Source of the DNA: Methylocaldum marinum
GTDB taxonomy: Bacteria; Pseudomonadota; Gammaproteobacteria; Methylococcales; Methylococcaceae
DNA: 64,000 nucleotides
NCBI RefSeq assembly: GCF_003584645.1
Contig: NZ_AP017928.1
Coordinates: 2,022,395 to 2,086,394, forward strand
Reading direction: 5' to 3'
The position numbers were made by a program, and so were the translations under genes. Each line of letters opens with the position of its first letter. Position 1 is the first letter of the stretch. Below the pieces are notes generated by a model that was not told where the DNA came from, did no database searches, and was given only the letters and a program-made list of their open reading frames with translations. Below, piece by piece: positions 15,109-28,666 of the stretch.

Positions 15109-16220
15109 GTGCTTACTTGCATTAAACACCGATATGCTGCATCTTGGTGATATGACTCAGATGCAGCAACTGACATGTGATGAGAAGACCCGAAGGATTC
15201 TGGAACAGCGGAGGAGCAGCCAAACGGAATTGCACAGAAACGTGTTTCGGGCACGCATTATCTTGGGGTGCCTGGACGGACGAGGTGTCATGGAATTGGC
15301 GCGGGCACTCAACACCCGTCCCAACACCGTCATCAAGTGGCGCGATCGCTTTGCCGCGGGAGGACTGGCGGGGCTGGAAGATCGGCCACGGCCCGGCGCG
15401 CCTCGGCAGTTGCCGCCCGATTTGCGCGAGCAAATTCTGGGCGTTTTGGAAGAATCGCCACCCCCTGGACAGGCGGTCTGGGATGGTGGTGCCGTGGCCC
15501 GGCGCTTGGGCGTTTCGCCACACGCGGTATGGCGGGTTTTGCGGCAGGAGGGGATTTGCCTGCAACGGCAACGTTCCTGGTGCGTTAGCACCGATCCGGA
15601 GTTCGTGGCCAAAGCCGCCGATATTGTCGGGCTCTATTTGGCGCCACCGACCAACGCGCTCGTAATTTGCGTGGACGAGAAACCGAGCATTCAGGCGTTG
15701 GAGCGGGCGAGCGGTTACGTGGAGACCGACAGCGGAAAAATCGTCCGGGGCTTCAAAAGTACCTACAAGCGCCATGGCACACTCAACTTATTTGCGGCGC
15801 TGCAAGTAGCCACCGGGCACGTTCACAGCGCAACTACCGCCACGAAAACCCGCGAGGATTTCTTGGCCTTCATGGACCAAGTCGTCGCCGAGACCCCGGC
15901 GGACCAGGAATTACATGTGATTTTGGACAACTATTGCACGCACAAGCGCAACGAGGACTGGTTGGCCAAGAATCCCAGGGTTCATTTTCACTTTACGCCA
16001 ACCTCGGCCAGTTGGTTGAACCAAGTGGAAATCTGGTTCGGTATCCTGAGTCGGAAAGCCTTGCGCGGGGCCAGTTTCTCCAGCATCGCTGAGTTACGGA
16101 ACGCTATTGAAGCGTTCATTGCCAACTATTCCCAAAATCCACGCCCATTCAAATGGCGCAAACGCGAAGTGCACGGCAGTCAACTCAAAAATACTATCGT
16201 TAATTTACGTAATTAAGCAC
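15109..16220 (+). mobile_element. IS630-family insertion sequence with TA target duplication
   Basis: A 1112-base element with imperfect terminal inverted repeats starting GTGCTTA and ending TTAAGCAC. It is flanked on both sides by TA (15107-15108 and 16221-16222), the target of IS630/Tc1-mariner elements. The same ends occur on a 94-base element at 23730-23823. Confidence 0.88.
15134..16216 (+). CDS. IS630-family transposase
   Basis: A 360-residue protein. The N-terminus has the HTH region (GVMELARALNTRPNTVIKW) and a second HTH near residue 125 (VARRLGVSPHAVWRVL). The DDE domain shows VICVDEKPSIQ (first Asp), VILDNYCTHK (second Asp) and TSASWLNQVEIWF (final Glu). It appears intact, with no internal stop. 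ATG 15152 is an alternative start. It is the only gene in its element. Confidence 0.93.
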   Translation: MLHLGDMTQMQQLTCDEKTRRILEQRRSSQTELHRNVFRARIILGCLDGRGVMELARALNTRPNTVIKWRDRFAAGGLAGLEDRPRPGAPRQLPPDLREQILGVLEESPPPGQAVWDGGAVARRLGVSPHAVWRVLRQEGICLQRQRSWCVSTDPEFVAKAADIVGLYLAPPTNALVICVDEKPSIQALERASGYVETDSGKIVRGFKSTYKRHGTLNLFAALQVATGHVHSATTATKTREDFLAFMDQVVAETPADQELHVILDNYCTHKRNEDWLAKNPRVHFHFTPTSASWLNQVEIWFGILSRKALRGASFSSIAELRNAIEAFIANYSQNPRPFKWRKREVHGSQLKNTIVNLRN

Positions 16221-16462
16221 TAGCACCATTGGTTTGCTACATAATCTGAAGCCACTAACAAAGCTTGATCTTTCAATTGTTGATAGCGTAGAAAAACCAT
16301 AAACTCGAAATTATATCTCTTGAATAACCGATACATTACAGAGTATAAAGTGCTCGAAATCTGGTTTTTACACAATCTCTTCGGCAGTAAACACAGGAAA
16401 ACCATTCAAGAAGCTAACCGCATCTCAGCGGCATATTAATCTGGAATGATGAGGAGCAGAAA

Positions 16463-16816
16463 GTGATTCGGAAAGGGGTTATAGGTTTAGCTTTGTTTGC
16501 ACTATCATTTGAAGCGATAGGGGCTTGTACCGGTCAGGTGAAAATAAAAGAGCTCTATTCAAGGTCAGGCGGTTGGGTGCACGTTGTGGCGGAAAACGTG
16601 AGCGACATTGATTTGGCGAATTGCGGGCATCACAACTCGACAGCGTTGGTATTAAATTACACTGATTCCCACGGAACTCTGGAAGGGAAGAAAATACTTT
16701 ATTCGGCGATATTAGCCGCATTCACTGCCGGCAAGACCCTCAGGTTATGTTCTGATGCATGTGATTCCAGATTTTCATCCTATTCAACCTTGACAGACAT
16801 TGATGGAATGCGGTGA
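16463..16816 (+). CDS. Small secreted protein of unknown function
   Basis: A 117-residue protein with a signal peptide (hydrophobic residues about 5-20, cleavage near IGA-C) and about 97 mature residues with four to five Cys, including LRLCSDACDSRF near the C-terminus. The GTG start at 16463 is supported by GAGGAG at 16451-16456. The mature part looks like a small beta-rich domain, but no family is recognised. The gene is AT-richer than the core genome and lies between IS630 and IS5, so it is probably acquired. Confidence 0.65.
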   Translation: MIRKGVIGLALFALSFEAIGACTGQVKIKELYSRSGGWVHVVAENVSDIDLANCGHHNSTALVLNYTDSHGTLEGKKILYSAILAAFTAGKTLRLCSDACDSRFSSYSTLTDIDGMR

Positions 16817-16891
16817 CGAAAAACGGCGTGAATTCGAAAACACTGTCAAATCTGAACAAATAACCTGAGGTTTATAACCCAGCCCTTTTAA

Positions 16892-18269
16892 CAGGCTGTT
16901 GAAATTCGCCTCCATGCCTTCGGCTTTACCCCTTATCGGCGGCTTAATTTTTAGTGCTGAAGGTCCTTTTAGCGCTGAAATCCCGGTTCTAGCCGGTTTT
17001 CATCCCCCCGCTTGGGGGTTCTTGCCGCCTTTCGGCGAATTTTGGGCAGACGCCCGCTAGGCCGTCGACCACCGCCAGCCGAACAGCCCACCCAACCGGG
17101 TCAGGTTGTAGGCGGCGAAAGTGAACACGGTCTGGGCCGCCACCTTCTTCAAACCCCGGAACCGGGTCTGGCGTAACCCGCCCACGGTCTTCGACCACCC
17201 GAAGATTTCTTCCACCCGCTTGCGCATTTTCAGGCTGGTCCGGTAGCCGGGGTGTCGGGTGGTGCGGCCATCGATGGCGGAGCCTTTTTCCTTCCGGGCG
17301 ACAGGCGGCGTGACCCGCTGCTCCCGGAGAACTTGCACGAACTCCGGCACGTCGTAAGCCTTGTCCGCCCCGACTGTCGCGCCGGGCTTCGTGACGGTGC
17401 GACCGATCATGATCTTGGCCGCGTCCCGTTCCGCCGTGCCGGTGGCGTGAATCACCTCGACATCCACGACCAGGCCGGTCCGGTTTTCCATCAGGGCATG
17501 GCCCATGAAGCACAGTTGGGCTTTATCCCCTTCGCTTTTCTTGTAAAGGCGAGCCTCCGGATCAGTGGTCGAGGCGTGGGTCGCATTGGCGCGCTTCTCG
17601 CCCTTGAAATCGACGGACGGATTCCGGCCGCCGGCCTCCGGCGGGGGCGAACTGCCATCCTTTTTCACAAAGCTCTTCATGGAGGCCCACGCCTGGATCA
17701 GCGTGCCGTCCACCGAGAAATGCTCGTCCGACAGAAGGTCCTGCCATTCCGCCAGCAACACGACCCGCTCGAAAAACAGCCGGGAAATCCGCTCGTTCAG
17801 CAACCGATCCCGGTTGGCGCTGAAGGTGGAGTGGTCCCAGACCTCGGCATCCAAGGTCAGCCCGACAAACCAGCGGTACAAAAGATTGAATTCGATCTGC
17901 TGGACCCACTGCCGCTCGGAGCGGACAGAGAACAAGACTTGGATGAGACCGGCGCGCAGCAGCCGCTCCGGCGGAATCGACTCCCGGCCGGTCCGGGCAT
18001 GGAGGGCATCAAATTCCGAGTCCAGCGTGGTCAGCAGAATGTCGACCACGGCCCGGAGCTTCCGAAGCGGATGATCCTTGGGAATCCGGTCTTCCAAGGT
18101 TCGGTAGCTGAAGAGTTCTTGCTGGGTGATGTCGGCGCCGCGCATGAAAGCGTCCAAAGTATCTTGAAATGATATTATTTTGCCATGACAAACAATCGTT
18201 TATGCCTATTTTATGCGCTCCATCCAACGAATTTTTGCGGCTTCCGGGGCCGAGAAAATCAACAGCCTG
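16892..18269 (-). mobile_element. IS5-family element, copy 1
   Basis: 1378 bases, ends CAGGCTGTTGA / TCAACAGCCTG, direct TTAA duplication at 16888-16891 and 18270-18273. It is one base shorter than the other three copies and carries scattered substitutions, so it is the oldest copy in the window. Confidence 0.93.
17057..18157 (-). CDS. IS5-family transposase, copy 1 (start codon lost)
   Basis: A 366-residue DDE transposase: an N-terminal region with LRAVVDILLTTLDSEFD, first Asp in HFSVDGTLIQAW, second in GADKAYD and final Glu in RVEEIFGWSKTVGG. The other copies start at an ATG seven codons upstream (MISFQDTLDS). Here that codon is ATA, so translation would have to begin at TTG 18157 and the copy may be silent. 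Confidence 0.9.
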   Translation of the reverse strand: MDAFMRGADITQQELFSYRTLEDRIPKDHPLRKLRAVVDILLTTLDSEFDALHARTGRESIPPERLLRAGLIQVLFSVRSERQWVQQIEFNLLYRWFVGLTLDAEVWDHSTFSANRDRLLNERISRLFFERVVLLAEWQDLLSDEHFSVDGTLIQAWASMKSFVKKDGSSPPPEAGGRNPSVDFKGEKRANATHASTTDPEARLYKKSEGDKAQLCFMGHALMENRTGLVVDVEVIHATGTAERDAAKIMIGRTVTKPGATVGADKAYDVPEFVQVLREQRVTPPVARKEKGSAIDGRTTRHPGYRTSLKMRKRVEEIFGWSKTVGGLRQTRFRGLKKVAAQTVFTFAAYNLTRLGGLFGWRWSTA

Positions 18270-19122: not shown

Positions 19123-19149
19123 TTGACATTCTTATCACATTGATATAGA
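19123..19149 (+). promoter_or_regulatory. Candidate promoter for the subtilase/PatG-like operon
   Basis: TTGACA (19123-19128) and TATAGA (19144-19149), spacer 15 bases, which is shorter than the ideal 17. It lies 66 bases before the protease start and is the best match in the gap. Confidence 0.5.
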
Positions 19150-19214
19150 TGGTCCTGAATCGTCAAAAGAAATGATGGCGAGGACCGTTCCTCCTCAGAA
19201 GGATTGGAGGCTGA

Positions 19215-20099
19215 ATGAGGCTTCTGGATTTAGTCAAGCTCACGCCGCTGATGGAGCAAACCAGCGGAAGACCGGAGATTGTCATCGGACTAATCGACGG
19301 TCCTGTCATCCGGGGGCATCCGGATCTCACCGGCGCACCGATCCGCGAGATACCGGGGAAGCTCAGCAGTACCTGTACTCGGAGCGACAGCCTAGCCTGT
19401 CAGCATGGCACTTTCGTGGCCGGCATCCTGTCCGCTCAGCGCGGTTCTTCCGCTCCGGCGATCTGTCCCGCCTGCACCCTGCTCGTTCGCCCCATCTTTT
19501 CCGAAATCGCCTTGGCCAACGGGGATTTGCCTAGCGCCAAACCTGAAGCACTCGCCGAGGCCATCCTCGACTGCATACGTGCCGGCACACGGGTACTCAA
19601 CGTCAGCGCCGCCCTTGCCCAACCCTCCGTCCAGGGTGAGCGGGCGTTGGAAGGAGCCCTGGACCAGGCTGCCAAGCGTAACGTCATCGTGGTGGCGGCG
19701 GCCGGCAATCAGGGGACGCTGGGCAGCACGGCCATCACCCGCCACCCGTGTGTTATCCCGGTCGTGGCGTACGATCTTCAGGGCAGGCCCATGAATCACT
19801 CGAACCTGGGAAACTCGATTGGTCGGCGGGGACTCGGCGCACCCGGCGACCGGATCACCAGCCTGGGCGCCGGCGGCAAGCCGGTCACCTTAGGAGGAAC
19901 CAGTGCCGCCGCGCCCTTTGTGACAGGTACCATCGCGCTCTTGTGGTCGGAATTTCCCACAGCCTCCGCCGCCGATATCAAGCTCGCCATCACGCAGGCC
20001 CATTCAGGACGGCGGACCACCGTAGTGCCACCCCTGCTCGATGCCTGGAAAGCGTTTCAGTCTCTGTTGACTAAACCCGCGAGGAGAAGACTGCCATGA
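19215..20099 (+). CDS. Subtilisin-like serine protease (S8), PatG-associated type
   Basis: A 294-residue protease domain without signal peptide, so it should act in the cytoplasm. The catalytic set is complete: Asp28 (VIGLIDGPV), His64 (QHGTFVAGIL), oxyanion Asn165 (VAAAGNQG) and Ser230 (GGTSAAAPFV). Cys-rich loops (residues 54-62 and SAPAICPACTLL) are unusual for the family. The closest architecture I know is the protease half of PatA/PatG cyanobactin maturation enzymes, which cut precursor peptides. GGAGG 19206-19210 precedes the ATG. Its TGA overlaps the next ATG (ATGA), and a PatG-C-terminal-like gene follows, so the two halves of PatG seem to be split into separate genes here. Confidence 0.88.
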   Translation: MRLLDLVKLTPLMEQTSGRPEIVIGLIDGPVIRGHPDLTGAPIREIPGKLSSTCTRSDSLACQHGTFVAGILSAQRGSSAPAICPACTLLVRPIFSEIALANGDLPSAKPEALAEAILDCIRAGTRVLNVSAALAQPSVQGERALEGALDQAAKRNVIVVAAAGNQGTLGSTAITRHPCVIPVVAYDLQGRPMNHSNLGNSIGRRGLGAPGDRITSLGAGGKPVTLGGTSAAAPFVTGTIALLWSEFPTASAADIKLAITQAHSGRRTTVVPPLLDAWKAFQSLLTKPARRRLP

Positions 20100-20302
20100 A
20101 TGAAGAAGACACTGAGAGTGTACAGACCGGTCAGCAACCCTATCGAGTGCGCCTTCCCGGATTCGTTAGCGATGAGGAGATCGGCTTGGGCGACGCCATC
20201 AAGCGGGTGGCTTACGCGCTCGGAGTTCAACCCTGTGGCGGCTGCGAACGTCGTGCGGCAGCACTGAACCGCTGGGTTGTTTTCACCGGACGGATCAGAT
20301 AA
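20096..20302 (+). CDS. Small CxxC protein in the PatG-like operon
   Basis: A 68-residue soluble protein with the motif QPCGGCERRAAALNRW near its C-terminus, a single Cys pair spaced CGGC that could bind metal or be redox active. Translation is coupled to the protease by a 4-base overlap. It has no recognised domain. Conserved small proteins with this ending are, to my memory, common beside PatG-like genes. It could be a scaffold or a leader-binding partner; that is conjecture. Confidence 0.75.
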   Translation: MNEEDTESVQTGQQPYRVRLPGFVSDEEIGLGDAIKRVAYALGVQPCGGCERRAAALNRWVVFTGRIR

Positions 20303-20339
20303 CCCGAGTCCGGATATCTATCTTTAAAGGAGAAAAAGT

Positions 20340-21248
20340 ATGGAACAAGAAATCCAAGAACAATCTGCAAACGAGAATGACACAGCTGTGGTCACACCCG
20401 CCCAAGGGGATATCGTCGAGGCGCCGCCGACTCGAGCGACGCCCTGTCCGACCTGCGCAGGTGCTGCGAGCACCATGGCGATGGCCTATATCTATGCCCT
20501 GGGCCGGATTGAGGCGCGTTTTCCGCTTCTCTCAGTGGAAAAGGAGTTTGCGCAAGTCGTTGGGCAAGCAGAGACCGCCGGCAAGACCGATCAACAGGTG
20601 TTCCATGCCGTTCTTTCGAAGCCCGAGAACCGCTATCTAGTGCGTCAGATGTGCTGGGTGTTTACCATCCAGGGACTGGAGACGTATATCCTGCAGCCGC
20701 GTAACCCGGCGGACTTCGATCTCTTGGTGGGGGCCATCCGGCCGGTGCCCGGCCCCAACGACATCGACATCGTGGTGGGGGTGCGCGGACCCATCGCCCC
20801 GCCGGAGTTCTGCAACGGACTGATGGTGCCCATCGTCGCCTTCGATCAGATCTATTCCTTCGACCGCGATGCACTCATCGAGGCCATCCCGAAGCCGGAG
20901 CAGACCACTGCCGAGCAATTCGGCCCGGCGGCTGAGGAACTGTTCAGCAGGATTATGCAGATGACGGACAATGCCGGCGCGACCGACGAGCACCGGGCGC
21001 TGAACTACCTCGCCGTGCGCTATCCAGCTATCTATGCCAAGGCGGCCGAGGAATTCGGGAGGGACTTTTCGCTGACTGGAGTGGAAGTGCGGCTCTCGCC
21101 TTTGAGCGGCACGCGAAGAATTGTGGAGGTCATCTTTTCCTTCACCAACCGCAACACCGATTTCACCGAGAAATTCTTCGTGCGCGTCGACGTGACCGAG
21201 GAGTTTCCGTACCTGGTGACGAAGCTGTCGCCTTACTATGACCGTTGA
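20340..21248 (+). CDS. PatG C-terminal-domain-like protein
   Basis: A 302-residue soluble protein. After an acidic N-terminal stretch comes a Cys pair (TPCPTCAGAAS, residues about 34-44), then AYIYALGRIEARFPLLSVEK, CWVFTIQGLETYIL (about 112) and VVGVRGPIAPPEFCNGL. The order YALGxI..., xWxxxIxGxxxYxL..., GxxxGPIxP resembles the PatG C-terminal domain of cyanobactin maturation proteases. Function of that domain is not settled; a structural or substrate-recruiting role is usual speculation. AAAGGAG at 20326-20332 gives a strong ribosome site. It directly precedes the leader-sharing small ORFs, so it may help the protease to process them. Confidence 0.8.
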   Translation: MEQEIQEQSANENDTAVVTPAQGDIVEAPPTRATPCPTCAGAASTMAMAYIYALGRIEARFPLLSVEKEFAQVVGQAETAGKTDQQVFHAVLSKPENRYLVRQMCWVFTIQGLETYILQPRNPADFDLLVGAIRPVPGPNDIDIVVGVRGPIAPPEFCNGLMVPIVAFDQIYSFDRDALIEAIPKPEQTTAEQFGPAAEELFSRIMQMTDNAGATDEHRALNYLAVRYPAIYAKAAEEFGRDFSLTGVEVRLSPLSGTRRIVEVIFSFTNRNTDFTEKFFVRVDVTEEFPYLVTKLSPYYDR

Positions 21249-21276
21249 ACTCGGAAAATAGCAGGAGGTGCATGTC

Positions 21277-21621
21277 ATGGATATGCCAAGATTTACCGCA
21301 GAGGCCTCGCTCTGCAAGACGAGCGCGCATTACCGGGGGAAGGCTGTTTACGGCAATTCAGGTGCGGCTGGAGTTTTGCCCATGCTGCCGAGACGACCGA
21401 CAATCTCCCACCCTGGAGACTGTTTCAACGATCCCACGACTGATAAAGAGTGCTCTGAAGGGGGCGGCCTGCTGTGCTATTGCTGTTACGCTGACGGTTG
21501 CTGGATTTGTGACAATTTGTTCGAGATACCGGCCAATTGTGTGTGGGACGACTCTTACCGCGCTCGGATCGGCCGGGGTATCGGGCGCATCGCGCGCGTT
21601 GCCGCGCCTATCGTCGGGTGA
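21277..21621 (+). CDS. Leader-sharing Cys-rich peptide 1 (candidate precursor)
   Basis: 114 residues from ATG 21277, GGAGG 21264-21268 eight bases upstream (GTG 21268 overlaps the ribosome site and is unlikely). The N-terminus MDMPRFTAEASLCKTSAHYR matches the other three ORFs of the set. The remainder is different and holds eight Cys, clustered as LLCYCCYADGCWICD, followed by an Arg/Ala/Gly-rich amphipathic tail (RIGRGIGRIARVAAPIVG) that looks like a cationic helix. Conserved leader plus variable core is what RiPP precursors look like; no modification enzyme is visible nearby. Confidence 0.7.
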   Translation: MDMPRFTAEASLCKTSAHYRGKAVYGNSGAAGVLPMLPRRPTISHPGDCFNDPTTDKECSEGGGLLCYCCYADGCWICDNLFEIPANCVWDDSYRARIGRGIGRIARVAAPIVG

Positions 21622-21710
21622 CCTGCGAGGTGGCATCAGGGTTGTTCTCGCTCCGTGCGAACATCTTTATGCAAATGACTGCTGGACCAGAAAGTATCGG
21701 AGTAACGAAA

Positions 21711-22157
21711 ATGGCCATGCCTGGATTTTTTGCGGAGGAGTCGCTTTCCAAAACGAACGGGCGTTATCGGCTTACGGCAGTGTTTGCTGCCTCTGTCGGC
21801 GGTCAAGTGTCTCCATCGATTACGAAAGGGACGCATTGTGTGGTCGATGATCCCAACTGCCCTAGCGGCTTTAGCAAATTGTTCTGCCCTAGTTATAACA
21901 GTGATGACTGTGTGGAAACGGGGATTTGTTGCACGCCATCGCAGCCACCGCCCCCGCCGACCTGCGGCCACCCTTGTCCTCCGGGGACCTATTGCTGCGG
22001 CCCCAGCTGTTGCTCAGTCGATTCAGTTTGCTGTCATGATAGCGCTGGCCACTGCTGTCCGGCAGGTACGCACTGTTGCAGTGATGGTGATGGCTGTTGT
22101 CCAAATGGGCAGAGGTGCAGAAGCATATTCGGGTGGCACTTCTGTAGCCCGATTTGA
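21711..22157 (+). CDS. Leader-sharing peptide 2 with granulin-like CC repeats
   Basis: 148 residues from ATG 21711: MAMPGFFAEESLSKTNGRYR leader-like start, a middle part, a proline run (QPPPPPT) and a C-terminal half with seven CC pairs (22 Cys in all), e.g. GHCCPAGTHCCSDGDGCCP. Cys-Cys pairs about six residues apart joined by CCPxGTHCC are the hallmark of granulin-type stacked hairpins of eukaryotes. The similarity may be convergent. A weak GGAG lies about 8 bases upstream. It is in line with peptides 1 and 3 and probably in the same transcript. Confidence 0.7.
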   Translation: MAMPGFFAEESLSKTNGRYRLTAVFAASVGGQVSPSITKGTHCVVDDPNCPSGFSKLFCPSYNSDDCVETGICCTPSQPPPPPTCGHPCPPGTYCCGPSCCSVDSVCCHDSAGHCCPAGTHCCSDGDGCCPNGQRCRSIFGWHFCSPI

Positions 22158-22426
22158 TTCCGTTTCGGTTGGGTTAAGCGATCGGAACTCAGCGGGCCGG
22201 TTATTAGTTTGCAAAATCCTGGCAAGCGACACCCGTCTCCCCTTGCGGCAGTCGAACGAAGTGATGCGGATTAGGGGGTTGCGGGAAGACCCTCACCCGG
22301 CGCTTTGCGCCACCCTCTCCCGCAAGGAAAGAGGGGATTGCGAGCGGCGGGCAGGTGCGACAACCGGCGGATATGGACGCTGGCCGATGCCACGGCAACT
22401 TCCCCGAAACCTAAAGGAGGTTCGAA

Positions 22427-22744
22427 ATGTGCATGCCCGGATTTGGCGCAGACGCATCGCTCTACCAGACAAACAACCGCTACCGGTTTGCTGCTGATAG
22501 CATTTCCAATAATGCTGCCGATAGCCTGTCCAGCCAGGCTTTGCCATTGGCCTTTGCACCCGATGTGGGGCGCGGGATGGACGGTTCGCGCATGACCTGC
22601 TGCAGTTGGAAGCCGTGGCTAAAGCCCCCATTTGTGTGCGCCGAGCGGCGCGTGAGCCCATTAGAAAATTGCCGCTGCACCTACGATTGGTGCGGTGACC
22701 CAGAGATCGTATGCCGCGGAGCTGTGATCGCCCTGCCGGAATAA
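22427..22744 (+). CDS. Leader-sharing Cys-rich peptide 3 (candidate precursor)
   Basis: 105 residues from ATG 22427 with a strong AAAGGAGG (22413-22420) six bases upstream. The start MCMPGFGADASLYQTNNRYR aligns with peptides 1 and 2. The C-terminal half carries seven Cys (TCCSWKPW, CRCTYDWCGDPEIVC). It is separated from peptide 2 by 269 bases that include a decayed palindromic stretch (around 22290-22345) of the type often scattered between genes. Confidence 0.7.
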   Translation: MCMPGFGADASLYQTNNRYRFAADSISNNAADSLSSQALPLAFAPDVGRGMDGSRMTCCSWKPWLKPPFVCAERRVSPLENCRCTYDWCGDPEIVCRGAVIALPE

Positions 22745-22858
22745 CGGGGCTAGCTTCGCCCGGGTAGCGATGCGGTGAACAAGAGGGACGGTATCGGCTC
22801 GTGACTGATGGCTCGAACCCAGAGATATGAATCCTAATTTTTGAGGTGCAACAAGAAC

Positions 22859-22939
22859 ATGCCAGGATTCACGGCACAGGCTTCAGCTTATAGGCTAACC
22901 AGCATCTATCGTAGAGTAATGGTCAAATTTTGTGTATGA
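22859..22939 (+). pseudogene. Leader-sharing peptide 4, truncated after the leader
   Basis: A 26-codon ORF, MPGFTAQASAYRLTSIYRR then six unrelated residues and TGA 22937. It is the leader of a fourth family member whose core has been lost. The break lies 11 bases before the inverted repeat at 22951 and the IS66 relic, which probably replaced the core. Confidence 0.6.
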
Positions 22940-23004: not shown

Positions 23005-23539
23005 CCTTTCCTGCTTGTGCAACGCCCACCTGCTGCGGGAACTGCGCTATTTCGAGGAGGCCACGGACGGGCATCGTTGGCCGATCCGACTTCGGGAAAT
23101 CCTGGTGGAAGGCAAGAAGGCGGTGGAAGCCGCCCAAGCCGAAGGCTTGAGCAAGGTGGACGCCGCCACGATCAGAAGCCTATTGGCCGACTATGATCGG
23201 TGGATCAACCTCGGCTTGTGGGTGTTCCCCGAGCGACCGAAGGAGCCGGGGCAGAAAGGCCGGCCGAAACAGGAACCCGCCACGAATCTGCTGCGACGAC
23301 GGCGTGATTTCAGGACCGAGGTGTGGCATTTTCTCCACGATTTCCGGGTGCCCTTCGACAACAACCTGGCCGAACGGCTGGTGCGCCCGGTCAAGGTCAA
23401 GCTGAAAATGGCCGGTGGGTTCCGCGCCCTCGGTGGTGCCGAAGCCTTCTGCATCATCCGCTCCCTCTGGGAAACTCATCGACGACAAGGCATCAATCCC
23501 TTTTCCACCCTCAGAACTGCTTTTGCAGGGGCTGAGTAG
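23005..23539 (+). pseudogene. IS66-family (ISBst12-like) transposase, C-terminal fragment
   Basis: About 177 codons: CNAHLLRELRYFEE, GRPKQEPATNLLRR, VPFDNNLAERLVRPVKVK and GGAEAFCIIRSLWETHRRQG. This is the second half of the DDE_Tnp_IS66 domain, with the catalytic Glu in NNLAER, of the ISBst12 type that lacks tnpA and tnpB. The first half and both ends are absent; the left edge is the inverted repeat copy A. Confidence 0.82.
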
Positions 23540-23823: not shown

Positions 23824-24062
23824 TAGCTCAAGTCAATTGATTTAAGCTGTCCTTGTGAGTCGAACTGGATAGTAACGCTGCCATAAGAACAATCCGCTGT
23901 AAAAACCTTGTCCTTCATCTCCTCATCAACCACTTTGCTCGGGTGTTGTGGATCATCAAATCGAATTTCCAGGAAATATCCCTCGGGCGAATGCGGCAGT
24001 GCATCAAGCTCACCCCGCTCGGCAAGAATATTTTGGATTTCAGCAATGTGAATTGTTGCCAT
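23823..24062 (-). CDS. Small acidic protein paired with the RHS toxin (candidate immunity protein)
   Basis: 79 residues, acidic and soluble, starting 8 bases after the RHS stop on the same strand. That position is where immunity genes of polymorphic toxins sit. Sequence (YFLEIRFDDPQHP, CSYGSVTIQFDSQGQL) suggests a small alpha/beta fold; no family recognised. The TAG stop is formed by the MITE end (TA duplication plus C), so the original C-terminus may have been longer. Function is inferred from position only. Confidence 0.7.
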   Translation of the reverse strand: MATIHIAEIQNILAERGELDALPHSPEGYFLEIRFDDPQHPSKVVDEEMKDKVFTADCSYGSVTIQFDSQGQLKSIDLS

Positions 24063-24070
24063 TGGAACAC

Positions 24071-27000
24071 CTATGGAAGCGGAATGAAATCGCCACTCTC
24101 AATCCTATTCGTCACTTGATTTGGTCTGATCGGACCAACGGAAATAATCTTCATCTCATCCCGAGGAACGGTGATCCGAAGAAGTTTTCCTTCCACGTTC
24201 TGGATTACATTGATGTTGCCCGACCTCGCGTCAAAGACTCGTTGCGCAGACGGATTGTTAGCTAACCGCTGGAAATCACCGGGAGATAATTTGCCAGCCA
24301 GCGATCCCATACGCGAATCATTGAGCTGACCCGTAACACGCGGATGGATGTCAAAAAGCTTCTCTCCACTCTTTGTAACATCCGCAACATTATCGGCATT
24401 TTTAATCACCGCGCCCAGAACGCCAACCCCCAACTTCGCTCCGGGCAGATCGGCAGTCAGGGCGTTGAAGGCGATTTGGCGGGTGTCTCCGGATGTGATG
24501 CCCTCGGCGAAATCCGTGGCGGGTGCGGCGGCGATGCCGATTGCCGGGTTTTTCCGGGCCACATCCAAAAAAGCACTGGCGGTGGTTCTGAGCTCGTTCA
24601 ATAAAGAGCTACCGGTGCTCGGTGCCCCCTGATACCCCGAGACATTCGAGCTCGCCATCGGGGCCGCCTTGTTTAGCCCCAACGGATCGGTAAAGCTCAC
24701 CGGATTGTTCCCGACGTACGCATAAGGGTTCAGCCCATCGGCAAAGCCCGCCGGGTCCCTTTGCGTGAACCGGCCGATCTGCGGATCGTAGTACCGCGCC
24801 CGATAGTAAATCAGACCGGTCGCGTCGGGTTCCCGCCCCGCGTAGCCGTAGCGCGGAAGCGCGCCGCCGGCGAGCGTTTGACCGAAGGCGGAGTAGCGGG
24901 CGCTGGCGGTGATCGCGCCGGCGGCGTTGGTGACCGCCACCACCGAACCGAGGGCGTCGGCGTGGTAGTAGGCCGTGCCGCCGCCGGCATCGGTCCGGAT
25001 CAGGGGGCGGTCGAGCCCGGCATCGGTATAAAGCGCCTGTGCCTGGGTCCAGGCGCTCCCGTAGTCGCTCCAGATCGCCAGCCCGGCATAGACGGAGCGC
25101 CGCGGCGTCCCGTCCACAGTGGTCTCGATGCGCCGGTCCTCATGATCGTAGACGTAGGTTTCCGGGGCGATTCCGGTGCCGCTCGCGGCCACCAGCCGCT
25201 CCAGGGCATCGTAGCTCAAGGTGAGAGTCGCCCCGCCGCCGCTGCGCTGGGTGAGATTGCCGGCCGGGTCATAGGTGTAGCTCGCGAGGATCGCCCCGGT
25301 GTCGCTGCCGCTCCGGATTTGCCGAAGTTGCTGGGCGGCGTCGTAAGCATAGCGCTGGATGCTGCCGTCCGGGGCGGTCCGCGCCCGGCGGTTGCCGTAC
25401 GCATCGTAGGCGTAGGCTTCAAAGAGGGTTGCGCCCGCATTGGTCCGCACTTCCCGCAGCCGGTCCAGGGCATCGTACTGGTAGGTGTAATCGGTCTCCG
25501 CCCCGGCGATGGCTTCACGATGGCCGGTGCGCCGGCCGAGGGGGTCGTACTGGTACGTATGATGGCTGACCTCGGTACCGCCTGCCGCCCGGTTGACGAG
25601 TTCCCCGAGGTAACCCTCGGGGGTGTAGCGGTAGAGGGTGCCGTAGCCGTTGGCCATGGTGGTTTCCAAGAGCCGTCCGCCGCCGTCGAACACGAAGTTG
25701 ACCCGCTCGCCGCTCGGCGCCTGCACGGCGCTGAGGCGCCCGACCGCGTCGTAGAGGAAGTCGCGGCGGTGGCCTTCGCTATCTTCGAGACTGTCGAGGA
25801 GTCCGCCGGGGCTATGGCGGTAAGTCAGGGTCTTGGGACCGCGGCTGTCGGTGACGGTGGCGAGGCGATGGGCGCTGTCGTAGGTGTATTGATAGGTGAC
25901 TTCCGGCGTCTGCGCGATCCGTACCTGGCCCAGGGCATTGTAAGTGTACTGGGTGACGTGGGGCGAGGGATCGGTGTCGGAGAGCTTCGCGGTGCGCCGG
26001 ACCAACAGCCCGTTGCGGGTGTGATCGTAGTCCCATTCGACCACATGGCCGCCGGGGGACACGCGGCGGATGGGGTTGCCGTAGGCATCGTAGGTCCAGC
26101 GGGTGGTGTGGCCATTGGCGTCGGTGGCTTCGATCACCCGGCCGAAATCGTCATAGCCGTAGGTCGCCTGGTCCGTCAGCGTTTCGCTGCCGGTGGCCGT
26201 GCGGTAGCCGGCCCGGATCTTTTGCACATCGCCCAAGGCGGTGTACTGGATCTCGGTGACCTGACGGATAGCGGTCAGGCCGAGGGCGTCATGCACCGGG
26301 CCGATGGTTTTGACCGGCCGGTTGAGCACGTCGTACTCGGTCAGGGTTTCGCGCCCGCCGTTGTCCACCGTCCGGACGACATTGCCGTTCGGGTCGTAAA
26401 AGTAGTCAGTGTAGCGCCCGTCGGGGCCGGTCAGCCGCTTCAGCCGCCCGTTCCGGGTCGGGTCGTAATAGGCGTACTGGGTGACGAGACCGTTGGGATC
26501 GGTCACGCGGATGGGCCGCCCGCCGATATCGTACTCGGTGACGACCGCGTGCCCCTGTGGGTCGAAGGCGCGGGTCGGCCGGTTGAGGGCGTCGTATTCG
26601 AACCGGACGCTGTAGCCGTCCGGGTTGGTGATCCTGAGGACGTTGCCGACTTCGTCGTAGGCGATCCGGGTCGCGTGCCCGGCGGTGTTGCGGCGAACCA
26701 CGGGCCGATCGAGAGCATCGTATTCCACCACGTCCTGCTGGAGAAGGCCGTAGACGCCGTTGCTGTCGAAGGCGGTCAGACTGGCGCCGATGGGGTTGCC
26801 GTTATTGTCGTAGGCAAAGTCGCGCCATTGCCGGAGGACATCGGTCGCGCGGGTGATCCGGCCGTCGTCGTCGTAGCGGGTCTCGGCCGGATAGAACCGT
26901 GCATCCACGGCGACGGTCGGCCGACCCAAGGCGTCGAAGGCCTGGCTGGCGGTGGTGCATTGATCCGTCAGCGTGGGCGAACCCAGTTGCTGCAAGCCGC

Positions 27001-28666
27001 AGCGCTTGACCGAGACGGGGTTCAGCGCCGCACCGTCATAGCCGAACTCGAGGTAAGGGCCTTCCTGGGTGCTGAAATCCCGCACGCGCTTCGTGCGCGT
27101 CAGGTTGCCCGCCCCGTCGTAGGTATGGATCGTCCAGGCGGCGATTTGCGCCAGTGCGGGGGTATCGGTATTCACACCCGCTTTCAAGGCGATGACCTCC
27201 GTGCGGTTGCCGCGGGCGTCGTAGCGGTACAGCGTGTAATGCCCGTTGGCGTCCTTGGTCTTGGTCGGCTGATGGAAGGCGTTGTAGCCTTCGTAGGTGA
27301 CGGTGCTGCCATCGGGCAGGGTCATCGTCGTCACATTGCCGGCTACATCGTAAGCGTATCGAATCGTGTTGCCGAGGGAGTCACGCCGCTGGGTCTCGTT
27401 GAGCGGATTGGCCGTATCTTTGTATTCATACACCAGCCGCGAGCCATCTCCTTGCTGGTGCTGGAGCTGTTGCCCCCATTCGTTGAAGAGATAGGTCTGG
27501 CTCACTCCGCGCTCGTCGACGGTGGTCGTTTCCCGGCGGAATGTGTTGTACCGGAAGGTGTAACTGTGGCCCTGACTGTCGGTATGCCGGAAGGTCTTGC
27601 CGTTGGCGTAATACTCGAAGCTCATGCCGTTGCCGTTCGGCCGCGTGTAGGTCTTCAGGGCATGATCGAGATTGGTGCCGTCGGCGGCGGTGTAATAGCT
27701 GTAGGTGGTCGAACCGCCACGCCGGCCCGCGACGACCTCCGGGCTTTCGAACTTGACGAGATCGCCGCGGCCGTCATAGGTGTAGCGGAAGGTCCGCCCC
27801 GCCCAGTCGGTGATCCGGGTGATGTGGCGGCCGCCGTTGTCGTACCAGAACCGAAGCGTCCGGCCGATGCCGTCCACGACCGTGGCCAGGTTTCCGTTGC
27901 TGTAGCCGAAACGCAAGGCGTTGTTGTTGCGGTCGACCACGCGAATCAGTTTCGCCGTCTGGCCGAGTTCCGTTCCGGCCGGCACGGTACCGGCCACGTT
28001 CTCGAAATAGAAAACCAGCCCGCCCTTTTCGCGGATCGAGTATTCGCCGTTGCTTTCCCGTTTCGCGGTGACGCGAAGACCGGGCTGGGCCGTCAGGGCC
28101 GCGTTCAGGGGAACGCCGCCGGTGTTTCCGGCCACCGTGAAACTGTTGGCGGACCCGGTGCCGTCGATCCAGATCACGCTATCGGTCACGGCGTTCTTAG
28201 TGTTGGAAACGAACCGGAGTTGATGGTTGAAGCTGTGGGTCCAGCCGTAGCCCAGGGGACCGTCGACACGGATGTTGGAGTTGTAGGAACGCTCGAAGAC
28301 GACATCGAGTCCGCCGCGTCCTCGTATGGCGATGTCCCGTTCCGAATGGTACATGTTGCCGGACAGCAGATTGACCGGATCGCCGGCCGAAGTCGTTGTC
28401 GGGTGATTCCCGGTATTGGAGCCGCCGCCCAAATCCACGACGGCCGCCCCCGTCCCGCCGCCGCTGTTCCCTTGAGACAGCTTGGTCGCCACCGTGTCCT
28501 TGATCGGAGCCTTGAAGCCTGTGCCCAGCGTCGGCGAGTACTGATTCGAAATCGGCTTGGACAAGGAATAGCCGCCTTGCGCGGTGACGTACTGACCGGC
28601 GATCTTGTAGCTGGTTTCGCCCGATTGCACATTCTGGTTTTCGTCGAGTATGGCCTTTTCCGCCAC
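24071..28666 (-). CDS. RHS-repeat polymorphic toxin, C-terminal part of an IS-split giant gene
   Basis: 1531 residues from the first in-frame start, but the frame is open to 28753 where an ISNCY element begins. It has many YD/RHS repeats (YDxxGxxxxxxDxxG), a start GNMYHSERDIAIRGRGGLDV and the core end RYYDPQIGRFTQRDPAGF, then NPVSFTDPLGL. The 200-residue variable tail ends in a domain with KLSPGDFQRLANN, SGNINVIQNVEGKLLRITVP and ESGDFIPLP, probably the toxin; its activity is unknown. The RHS shell would encase the tail. Upstream residues 28667-28753 (FADGYFKVTLP, NYDGWAGAVWVAE) belong to the same protein, as does the transglutaminase-like part at 30603-32087. Confidence 0.9.
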   Translation of the reverse strand: MAEKAILDENQNVQSGETSYKIAGQYVTAQGGYSLSKPISNQYSPTLGTGFKAPIKDTVATKLSQGNSGGGTGAAVVDLGGGSNTGNHPTTTSAGDPVNLLSGNMYHSERDIAIRGRGGLDVVFERSYNSNIRVDGPLGYGWTHSFNHQLRFVSNTKNAVTDSVIWIDGTGSANSFTVAGNTGGVPLNAALTAQPGLRVTAKRESNGEYSIREKGGLVFYFENVAGTVPAGTELGQTAKLIRVVDRNNNALRFGYSNGNLATVVDGIGRTLRFWYDNGGRHITRITDWAGRTFRYTYDGRGDLVKFESPEVVAGRRGGSTTYSYYTAADGTNLDHALKTYTRPNGNGMSFEYYANGKTFRHTDSQGHSYTFRYNTFRRETTTVDERGVSQTYLFNEWGQQLQHQQGDGSRLVYEYKDTANPLNETQRRDSLGNTIRYAYDVAGNVTTMTLPDGSTVTYEGYNAFHQPTKTKDANGHYTLYRYDARGNRTEVIALKAGVNTDTPALAQIAAWTIHTYDGAGNLTRTKRVRDFSTQEGPYLEFGYDGAALNPVSVKRCGLQQLGSPTLTDQCTTASQAFDALGRPTVAVDARFYPAETRYDDDGRITRATDVLRQWRDFAYDNNGNPIGASLTAFDSNGVYGLLQQDVVEYDALDRPVVRRNTAGHATRIAYDEVGNVLRITNPDGYSVRFEYDALNRPTRAFDPQGHAVVTEYDIGGRPIRVTDPNGLVTQYAYYDPTRNGRLKRLTGPDGRYTDYFYDPNGNVVRTVDNGGRETLTEYDVLNRPVKTIGPVHDALGLTAIRQVTEIQYTALGDVQKIRAGYRTATGSETLTDQATYGYDDFGRVIEATDANGHTTRWTYDAYGNPIRRVSPGGHVVEWDYDHTRNGLLVRRTAKLSDTDPSPHVTQYTYNALGQVRIAQTPEVTYQYTYDSAHRLATVTDSRGPKTLTYRHSPGGLLDSLEDSEGHRRDFLYDAVGRLSAVQAPSGERVNFVFDGGGRLLETTMANGYGTLYRYTPEGYLGELVNRAAGGTEVSHHTYQYDPLGRRTGHREAIAGAETDYTYQYDALDRLREVRTNAGATLFEAYAYDAYGNRRARTAPDGSIQRYAYDAAQQLRQIRSGSDTGAILASYTYDPAGNLTQRSGGGATLTLSYDALERLVAASGTGIAPETYVYDHEDRRIETTVDGTPRRSVYAGLAIWSDYGSAWTQAQALYTDAGLDRPLIRTDAGGGTAYYHADALGSVVAVTNAAGAITASARYSAFGQTLAGGALPRYGYAGREPDATGLIYYRARYYDPQIGRFTQRDPAGFADGLNPYAYVGNNPVSFTDPLGLNKAAPMASSNVSGYQGAPSTGSSLLNELRTTASAFLDVARKNPAIGIAAAPATDFAEGITSGDTRQIAFNALTADLPGAKLGVGVLGAVIKNADNVADVTKSGEKLFDIHPRVTGQLNDSRMGSLAGKLSPGDFQRLANNPSAQRVFDARSGNINVIQNVEGKLLRITVPRDEMKIISVGPIRPNQVTNRIESGDFIPLP

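Follow-up and report, generated by a model that had tools for sequence, protein, structure and literature searches.

The closest described relatives of the system studied here are the cyanobactin pathways, such as those of patellamide and of Gloeothece verrucosa (L131), in which the PatA and PatG proteins join an S8 protease domain to a domain of unknown function (DUF), and the precursors carry a conserved leader followed by a variable core. A published account gives the cyanobactin leader as NILPQQGQPVIR (PMC5108345), and the structure of the PatG DUF was reported as a novel fold, in a domain conserved in all cyanobactin pathways then characterised, whose role was left open (PMC4259220). In our study, a stretch of 64,000 nucleotides of Methylocaldum marinum (hereafter the window; the genome is a single contig of 6.09 Mb) was found to contain a cassette at 19215-22939, all on the + strand, which encodes an S8 subtilase, a small CxxC protein, a stand-alone PatG DUF protein and four leader-sharing peptides. 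A reading made from the sequence only had placed the start of the cassette at 19123; the first gene begins at 19215. The cassette differs from the cyanobactin genes in that the two domains are encoded by separate genes, a CxxC gene is present in most loci, the leader is another one, the cores are long with many cysteines, and neither the YcaO-type nor the SagB protein of Gloeothece had a match in the 90 loci analysed. A cyanobactin identity was rejected because YcaO and the cyanobactin leader were missing; the protease also scored under the cut-off of the PatA/PatG model TIGR03895. We consider it fairly probable, from the sequence evidence, that the cassette carries out a leader-guided maturation of ribosomal peptides and makes disulfide-rich products, in a pathway related to the cyanobactins and distinct from them.

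The stand-alone PatG DUF protein (20340-21248, + strand, 302 amino acids) was the one match to this protein in its own genome. It contained the Pfam domains PatG_D (1e-32) and PatG_C (3e-35), both above the Pfam cut-offs, and a sequence-profile search matched it to the PDB entry 4uvq (9e-8). An AlphaFold2 model with a mean predicted local distance difference test (pLDDT) score of 88.5 was matched to 4uvq by Foldseek (3.6e-14), and VIA-align gave a Z of 21.4 and a root-mean-square deviation of 3.0 over 245 aligned residues, the next chain having a Z of 7.3. Residues 47-301 of the model were aligned with residues 920-1184 of PatG, and the protein therefore corresponds to the whole DUF, which is also carried by PatA. 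The relation of this third gene to PatG, on which the sequence-only reading had made its proposal depend, was borne out by the domain models, the profile and the modelled fold, but the description as PatG-C-terminal-like was too narrow, as the whole PatG/PatA DUF is present and not the C-terminus alone. Similarly, the protease and the DUF are split between two genes as had been read, but the split corresponds equally to PatA. The N-terminal tail, which holds a CxxC motif, was modelled at low confidence (residues 12-35 with pLDDT below 50); the two cysteines of this motif were kept in 78 and 75 of 84 proteins and two single cysteines in 81 and 83 of 84. Partial second PatG-like frames were observed amid the downstream peptide genes of three loci, at L049:8236-8652 (9e-45), L071:6454-6915 (3e-50) and L082:8570-9022 (3e-32).

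The S8 subtilase (19215-20099, + strand, 294 amino acids; Pfam Peptidase_S8 5e-21) contained Asp28, His64, Asn165 and Ser230, each conserved in at least 93% of 77 homologues, which upholds the full catalytic set read earlier. Two cysteine pairs were also conserved, C84/C87 (in 71 and 69 of 77) and C54/C62 (in 65 and 66 of 77). No signal peptide or prodomain was recognised in the window protein; its highest hydropathy over 17 residues was 1.41, and no membrane segment was seen. Counted from an ATG, at most 24 residues were possible ahead of the Asp motif in 57 of 81 S8 frames, and at least 40 in 12 of 81. The missing export signal and the short N-termini agree with the prediction of a cytoplasmic subtilase. 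The best-scoring NCBIfam model was that of the type VII secretion mycosins (TIGR03921, 120.5 bits against a cut-off of 278.75), compared with 104.2 bits for the PatA/PatG model TIGR03895 (cut-off 421.05); the PatG-like window protein gave 22 bits with TIGR03895, which is likewise under the cut-off. Type VII mycosins possess a signal peptide and a membrane anchor. The window protease resembles them in its top NCBIfam model, whereas its score is far below the cut-off and neither a signal nor a membrane segment is visible, and the mycosin identity was rejected because of the low score and the missing export signal. The S8 domain resembles the PatA/PatG protease model (104 bits) and has the PatG DUF as a partner, which would fit a transamidase like PatG, giving macrocyclic or ligated products; the higher score of the mycosin model, the long cores, and the apparent lack of a conserved cleavage motif at the C-terminus, for which no systematic search was made, make such an activity highly improbable. 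Among the PADLOC models of known anti-phage defence systems, the protease matched a generic subtilase model (3e-17) and, weakly, the IetS models, as single-protein matches to which the system rules were not applied, and five other cassette proteins matched no model.

The CxxC protein (20096-20302, + strand, 68 amino acids) contained the motifs LPGF...GLGD...PCGGC, and its coupling to the subtilase was confirmed, as its ATG overlaps the S8 stop codon. The CxxC motif was found in all 64 homologues, and LPGF was conserved in at least 93%. The window protein had no Pfam match, and its homologues gave three single-member matches only, which were not credible (E 0.039-0.066). A phage family with unknown function, phrog_32048, was matched by each of the 54 homologues scanned (window protein 7e-6, best 4.6e-8); the match covers the GLGD...PCGGC part. 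The model of the protein showed a strand-helix-helix-strand order at a mean pLDDT of 79.6; a fold search with it found nothing at E≤0.001 (best 3.3), which is no evidence for a new fold.

The genome scan comprised one genome per species for 84,980 species and yielded 113 proteins related to the PatG protein, the best 80 of which entered the analysis (L016-L095); together with the window and L007-L015 these made up the 90 loci. Six were dropped to reach 84 stand-alone loci, namely L009 (fused), L015 (diverged), L010 (contig begins inside the gene), L040 (contig of L007), and L008 and L045, which are one locus from a close relative of L007, whose genome was left uncounted. The co-occurrence across genomes that the sequence-only reading had proposed to look for was found: a same-strand S8 gene was present in 78 of the 84 loci, a CxxC gene in 66, both in 64, and at least one leader peptide in 76. 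The distances among the PatG proteins were correlated with those among the S8 proteins (Mantel r 0.79, n=76) and among the CxxC proteins (r 0.56, n=64), with 0/999 permutations in each case. The predicted leader precursors are genetically tied to the S8 protease, the CxxC protein and the stand-alone PatG DUF, and dedicated maturation genes beside the precursor, one of the marks of a ribosomally synthesised and post-translationally modified peptide (RiPP), are indicated by this co-occurrence. The other mark, a conserved leader with a variable core, was also found: 192 peptides share the leader, and 168 of their cores fell into 67 clusters.

The leader profile was seeded from 15 approximate leaders and then iterated. 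The consensus of 41 aligned leaders was MNMPGFTAEASLYxTxxxY, in which M1, P4 and A8 were invariant and F6, S11, L12 and Y19 were conserved in at least 90%. No LPxQxxPVxR was found in the window peptides, and the consensus was by eye unlike NILPQQGQPVIR, so a cyanobactin-type leader was rejected. At a domain E<1 in the 90 loci, 187 matches lay downstream of the PatG gene, on its strand and no more than 4 kb away (274,605 amino acids of open reading frames, ORFs), with 7 further same-strand matches upstream and 12 elsewhere, and opposite-strand ORFs gave 2 in 941,671 amino acids, so that the downstream matches exceed chance; 75 of the 90 loci had at least one downstream match. The own genome, searched over its whole 6.09 Mb, contained at E≤0.001 the four window leaders only. 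Within 274 genomes of the class, PatG_C was found in five and the leader (E≤0.001) in four, which were the own genome, G021, G028 and G169; all four were PatG-positive, with the leader on the PatG contig. The PatG protein was stand-alone in the own genome, G021 and G169, and in G028 only its C-terminal end is visible because the contig begins inside the gene. The fifth PatG-positive genome (G032) contained a fused form without the leader. The CxxC profile was found in three of the 274 genomes, each PatG-positive. Weak leader matches (E 0.005-0.1) occurred in 14 further genomes of the class, with about 27 expected by chance at 0.1. In a phylum sample of 398 genomes, which overlaps the class sample in part, PatG and the leader (E≤0.001) were found in the own genome only, and four other genomes gave the leader at E 0.0014-0.0095, roughly the chance number. 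At E≤0.001 the leader is confined to PatG-positive genomes within the sampled Pseudomonadota, and a wide occurrence of the leader without PatG neighbours, which would have spoken against the proposal, was not seen in these class and phylum samples.

Four small ORFs with a common N-terminus had been read downstream of the PatG gene on the + strand, and all four matched the leader profile, but the fourth has no core. Precursor peptide 1 (21277-21621, 114 amino acids) contained 8 cysteines beyond residue 25, peptide 2 (21711-22157, 148 amino acids) 22, and peptide 3 (22427-22744, 105 amino acids) 7, with leader E values in the own genome of 3.9e-12, 1.0e-6 and 1.2e-8, respectively. Precursor 4 (22859-22939, 26 amino acids; leader E 6.9e-4) consists of a leader only and is probably truncated; the remnant of an IS66 transposase (23015-23536) lies 3' of it. 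Peptide 2 shared 57% identity along its full length with a peptide of Methylobacter luteus and 54% with one of a Pyrinomonadaceae bin, and peptide 3 shared 36-38% identity, along nearly all of its length, with peptides of L025, L031, L037 and L039. A granulin identity of peptide 2 was rejected, as the Granulin match was sub-threshold (E 0.076). In L079:5609-7216, on a contig filed as a Nitrososphaerales archaeon, a leader-bearing and very Cys-rich frame of about 530 residues was observed, with several matches to peptide 2.

At a domain E≤0.05, 192 leader peptides were found in 77 loci (one on the opposite strand, in L069), with 1-12 per locus (median 2) and a median length of 89. The fraction of cysteine was 0.001-0.012 at residues 1-30 (0.002 at 21-30), 0.024 at residues 31-40 and 0.10-0.14 from residue 41 on. 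Between the two parts, a P-Q or P-A pair, with V/I at position -2 and often I/V at -1, peaked at residues 33-36. The pair was found in 106 of 166 non-redundant spacer segments (mean 45.2 and maximum 58 in 500 shuffles) and was preceded by V/I/L in 96 (shuffled mean 16.6, maximum 26); the first cysteine followed at a median of 11 residues. The predicted precursors begin with a leader of about 22 residues that is nearly free of cysteine, followed by a P-(Q/A) pair near residue 35 in about two-thirds of the non-redundant set and by a variable Cys-rich core.

Because paired cysteines give even numbers, the parity of the cysteine count bears on the nature of the products. It was counted on the 168 of the 192 peptides that were 46-199 residues long, and an even number was found in 153 of 165 Cys-containing cores (binomial p 3e-32) and in 56 of 64 cluster representatives (p 6e-10), whereas nine other residues in the cores had an even count in 29-51%. 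Among ORFs with at least two cysteines, 153 of 161 cores were even compared with 786 of 1280 other ORFs of the same loci (61%), a control which may include unrecognised precursors. The earlier suggestion that the products may be disulfide-rich gains strength from these counts. Alternatively, the cysteines could bind zinc, copper or iron without forming disulfides, and the cassette would then make metal-sequestering peptides; 4 or 6 cysteines are common in the cores and a CxxC motif is present in all three machinery proteins, but counts of 2, 6, 8, 10 and 14 are all in use and the cores are diverse (the 168 cores fell into 67 BLAST clusters, the largest with 58), and we regard metal binding as very unlikely.

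The leader (E≤0.001) was found in 24 of the 30 genomes or records behind the loci and not in G672, G673, G674, G679, G680 and G681. Five Nitrosospira/Nitrosovibrio genomes had some leaders away from the cassette, either at a great distance or on a different contig. At 14 such places (L139-L152) there was one leader peptide each with a Cys-rich core, containing 24, 24, 14, 24, 10, 14, 14, 12, 24, 8, 8, 10, 11 and 11 cysteines, respectively, an even number in 12 of 14. No PatG, S8 or CxxC gene was found within 4.7-6.2 kb around these 14 peptides. They sit between other genes, and several are nearly alike across genomes (L140/L144, L148/L150). A fifteenth place, in Streptomyces (L153), contained two leader peptides adjoining a second PatG-like and S8-like gene. 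Judged from these sequences, the cassette machinery of some nitrifiers probably also acts in trans on precursors encoded elsewhere. In the prochlorosins, which are made by a LanM enzyme, one machinery likewise serves many precursors with a common leader, and some of these are scattered over the genome; the present system differs in that no modifying enzyme recurred in the neighbour surveys, in which LanM was not sought by name.

No YcaO was present in the own genome, and neither the YcaO-type thiazole/oxazole-modified microcin (TOMM) protein nor the SagB of Gloeothece (L131) matched any of the 90 loci by phmmer at E≤0.001 (PatB and PatC were not searched for), in agreement with the statement that YcaO is absent from the cassette. 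In the 30 other cassette genomes or plasmid records, YcaO was missing from 18, including all Nitrosospira, Nitrosomonas, Methylobacter and Brocadia searched, and was found somewhere in 12, namely one cyanobacterium and 11 actinomycetes. An ordinary cyanobactin pathway with the heterocyclase encoded elsewhere would accord with the PatG DUF homology and with these 12 records, but the own genome without YcaO largely refutes it there, the 18 other records also lack the gene and the leader is unlike the cyanobactin one, which leaves this explanation hardly credible.

When the neighbours were clustered, the cassette genes and the peptides aside, no family was found in more than five loci except for clusters in 6-9 loci, all of whose members are on the opposite strand and resemble shadow ORFs. 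Rarer neighbours without a fixed place were a short-chain dehydrogenase in 5 loci and an ABC-type ATPase in 4 (by reading). Of 501 candidate neighbours, 126 were chosen for Pfam and one very long one was omitted; among the first 25 of 179 families in the remaining 125, none was present in more than three, and single YcaO, LanM or radical-SAM neighbours are possible. The CxxxCxxC motif occurred in ten ORFs of more than 200 amino acids across the 90 loci. These surveys also bear on an alternative in which the leader serves as a tag for sorting or export. The PatG protein would hand the peptides over to a general exporter, the S8 enzyme would take off the tag, and the disulfides would arise spontaneously outside the cell, with no dedicated modification. 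Such a tag would agree with the lack of a recurrent modifying enzyme, with the even cysteine number, which fits extracellular disulfide miniproteins, and with one leader being common to products of very different size. However, no recurrent exporter was found in the surveys, the window precursors have no strongly hydrophobic segment and the S8 enzyme has no export signal, and we consider the tag unlikely.

Orphan fused PatA/PatG proteins, represented by L009 (same class) and L128 (Gloeocapsa plasmid), are like the present cassette in having an S8 domain, a PatG DUF and Cys-rich peptides downstream, with no YcaO-type gene recognised in the stretch (by annotation in L128, by phmmer in L009). They differ in being one fused protein and in the leader, MNLPIQ / MKLPVQAxPVxR, which is nearer to the cyanobactin NILPQQGQPVIR. 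Their Cys-rich peptides with the MKLPVQ/MNLPIQ leader were observed at L128:8814-9125 and L009:4852-5496. As the peptides of the fused form carry a near-cyanobactin leader, the split form and the fused form may represent two branches of a common theme. In the open-access literature, with most subscription papers and bioRxiv preprints outside its scope, no description of the cassette was recognised and the leader strings were not found, in line with the earlier opinion that the gene set is not a described RiPP class. Two genes of Saccharopolyspora NFXS83 were called cyanobactin-like (PMC10145562); this genome holds L088, and the two are linked by genome only, without matching of gene tags. A cyanobactin peptidase gene of Roseomonas oryzae, not compared here, is mentioned in a paper on Acetobacteraceae (PMC8776678). 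No leader family is described with these single genes in the available portions of the two papers (PMC10145562, PMC8776678).

The organisms named for the loci span 11 bacterial and 2 archaeal phyla (NCBI ranks). Many records, the archaeal ones included, are metagenome bins, and individual organism labels may therefore be in error. A quick tree, in which many forks were left open, placed the window PatG protein nearest to that of a deltaproteobacterial bin (77%) and in a starred group of seven rows bearing four phylum labels, which suggests transfer. Five plasmid records contained a relative of the PatG protein, of which four were stand-alone, from Mesorhizobium, Sinorhizobium and two Streptomyces, all with the CxxC protein, and one was a diverged Photobacterium match. 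In viral contigs, 116 stretches fitted a pattern and none was confirmed as a relative, so carriage by phages was rejected. Transposase genes or remnants (DDE_3, DUF772/DDE_Tnp_1, IS66) were observed on both sides of the window cassette, at 15134-18157 and 23015-23536. Beyond them, on the - strand at 23826-28666, lies a gene for an RHS-repeat protein of 1531 amino acids, with a small ORF of 79 amino acids directly downstream that is possibly an immunity gene.

In the leader-guided maturation that we favour, the PatG DUF protein would recognise the leader or offer the precursor to the S8 protease, which would cut the precursor at the V-(I/V)-P-(Q/A) motif or close to it, and the core would mature into a disulfide-linked miniprotein. 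More speculatively, the CxxC protein, whose LPGF resembles the MPGF of the leader, might dock at the leader site and join in the thiol chemistry. Several observations weigh against this maturation. The PatG DUF was reported to bind no cyanobactin precursor, either before or after heterocyclisation (PMC4259220). No recurrent exporter or oxidase was seen in the neighbour surveys, which leaves disulfide formation and exit from the cytoplasm unexplained. The leader and CxxC profiles aligned only weakly at MPGF/LPGF (hhalign probability 48%, 10 columns). Among the precursors, 10 of the 192 had no cysteine beyond residue 25, the P-(Q/A) pair was missing from 60 of the 166 segments, and the cysteine number of window peptide 3 is odd; the window cores lack P-Q/P-A at the usual place by eye (VLPM at P35, VSPS at P35 and ALPL at P40), peptides 1-3 keeping the motif proline and not the residue after it. 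No S8 gene was detectable in six of the 84 loci (L014, L070, L073, L077, L079, L083), no CxxC protein in 18, and no leader peptide in eight (L014, L057, L073, L077, L078, L080, L083, L090); in L057 and L078 the contig stops just past the PatG gene. All four archaeal loci lack parts of the cassette: L035 (Methanoperedens) contained S8 and leaders and no CxxC match, L079 leaders only, and L073 and L083 the PatG protein alone.

A wider proposal, which taken as a whole we hold to be possible and rather doubtful, would make the PatG DUF a leader-reading module and the CxxC protein a leader mimic acting alongside it; by leader-guided thiol chemistry in the cytoplasm the two would install or proofread disulfides, and the S8 enzyme would afterwards release the core. 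On this view the cassette would move horizontally and serve as a platform for producing disulfide miniproteins, would act in trans on precursors dispersed in the genome, and would be common to nitrifiers, methanotrophs, anammox bacteria, acidobacteria, actinomycetes and, as partial versions, archaea; the cyanobactin PatA/PatG would use the same module fused to the protease. As the PatG DUF stands alone here and is tied to one leader family, its role is directly testable. If the maturation outlined above is true, the cassette would represent a class of ribosomal peptides that is widespread and has apparently not been described, these loci alone holding nearly two hundred precursors with the leader, and a new way to make disulfide miniproteins. 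The cassette is present in nitrifiers and methanotrophs, which are ecologically central.

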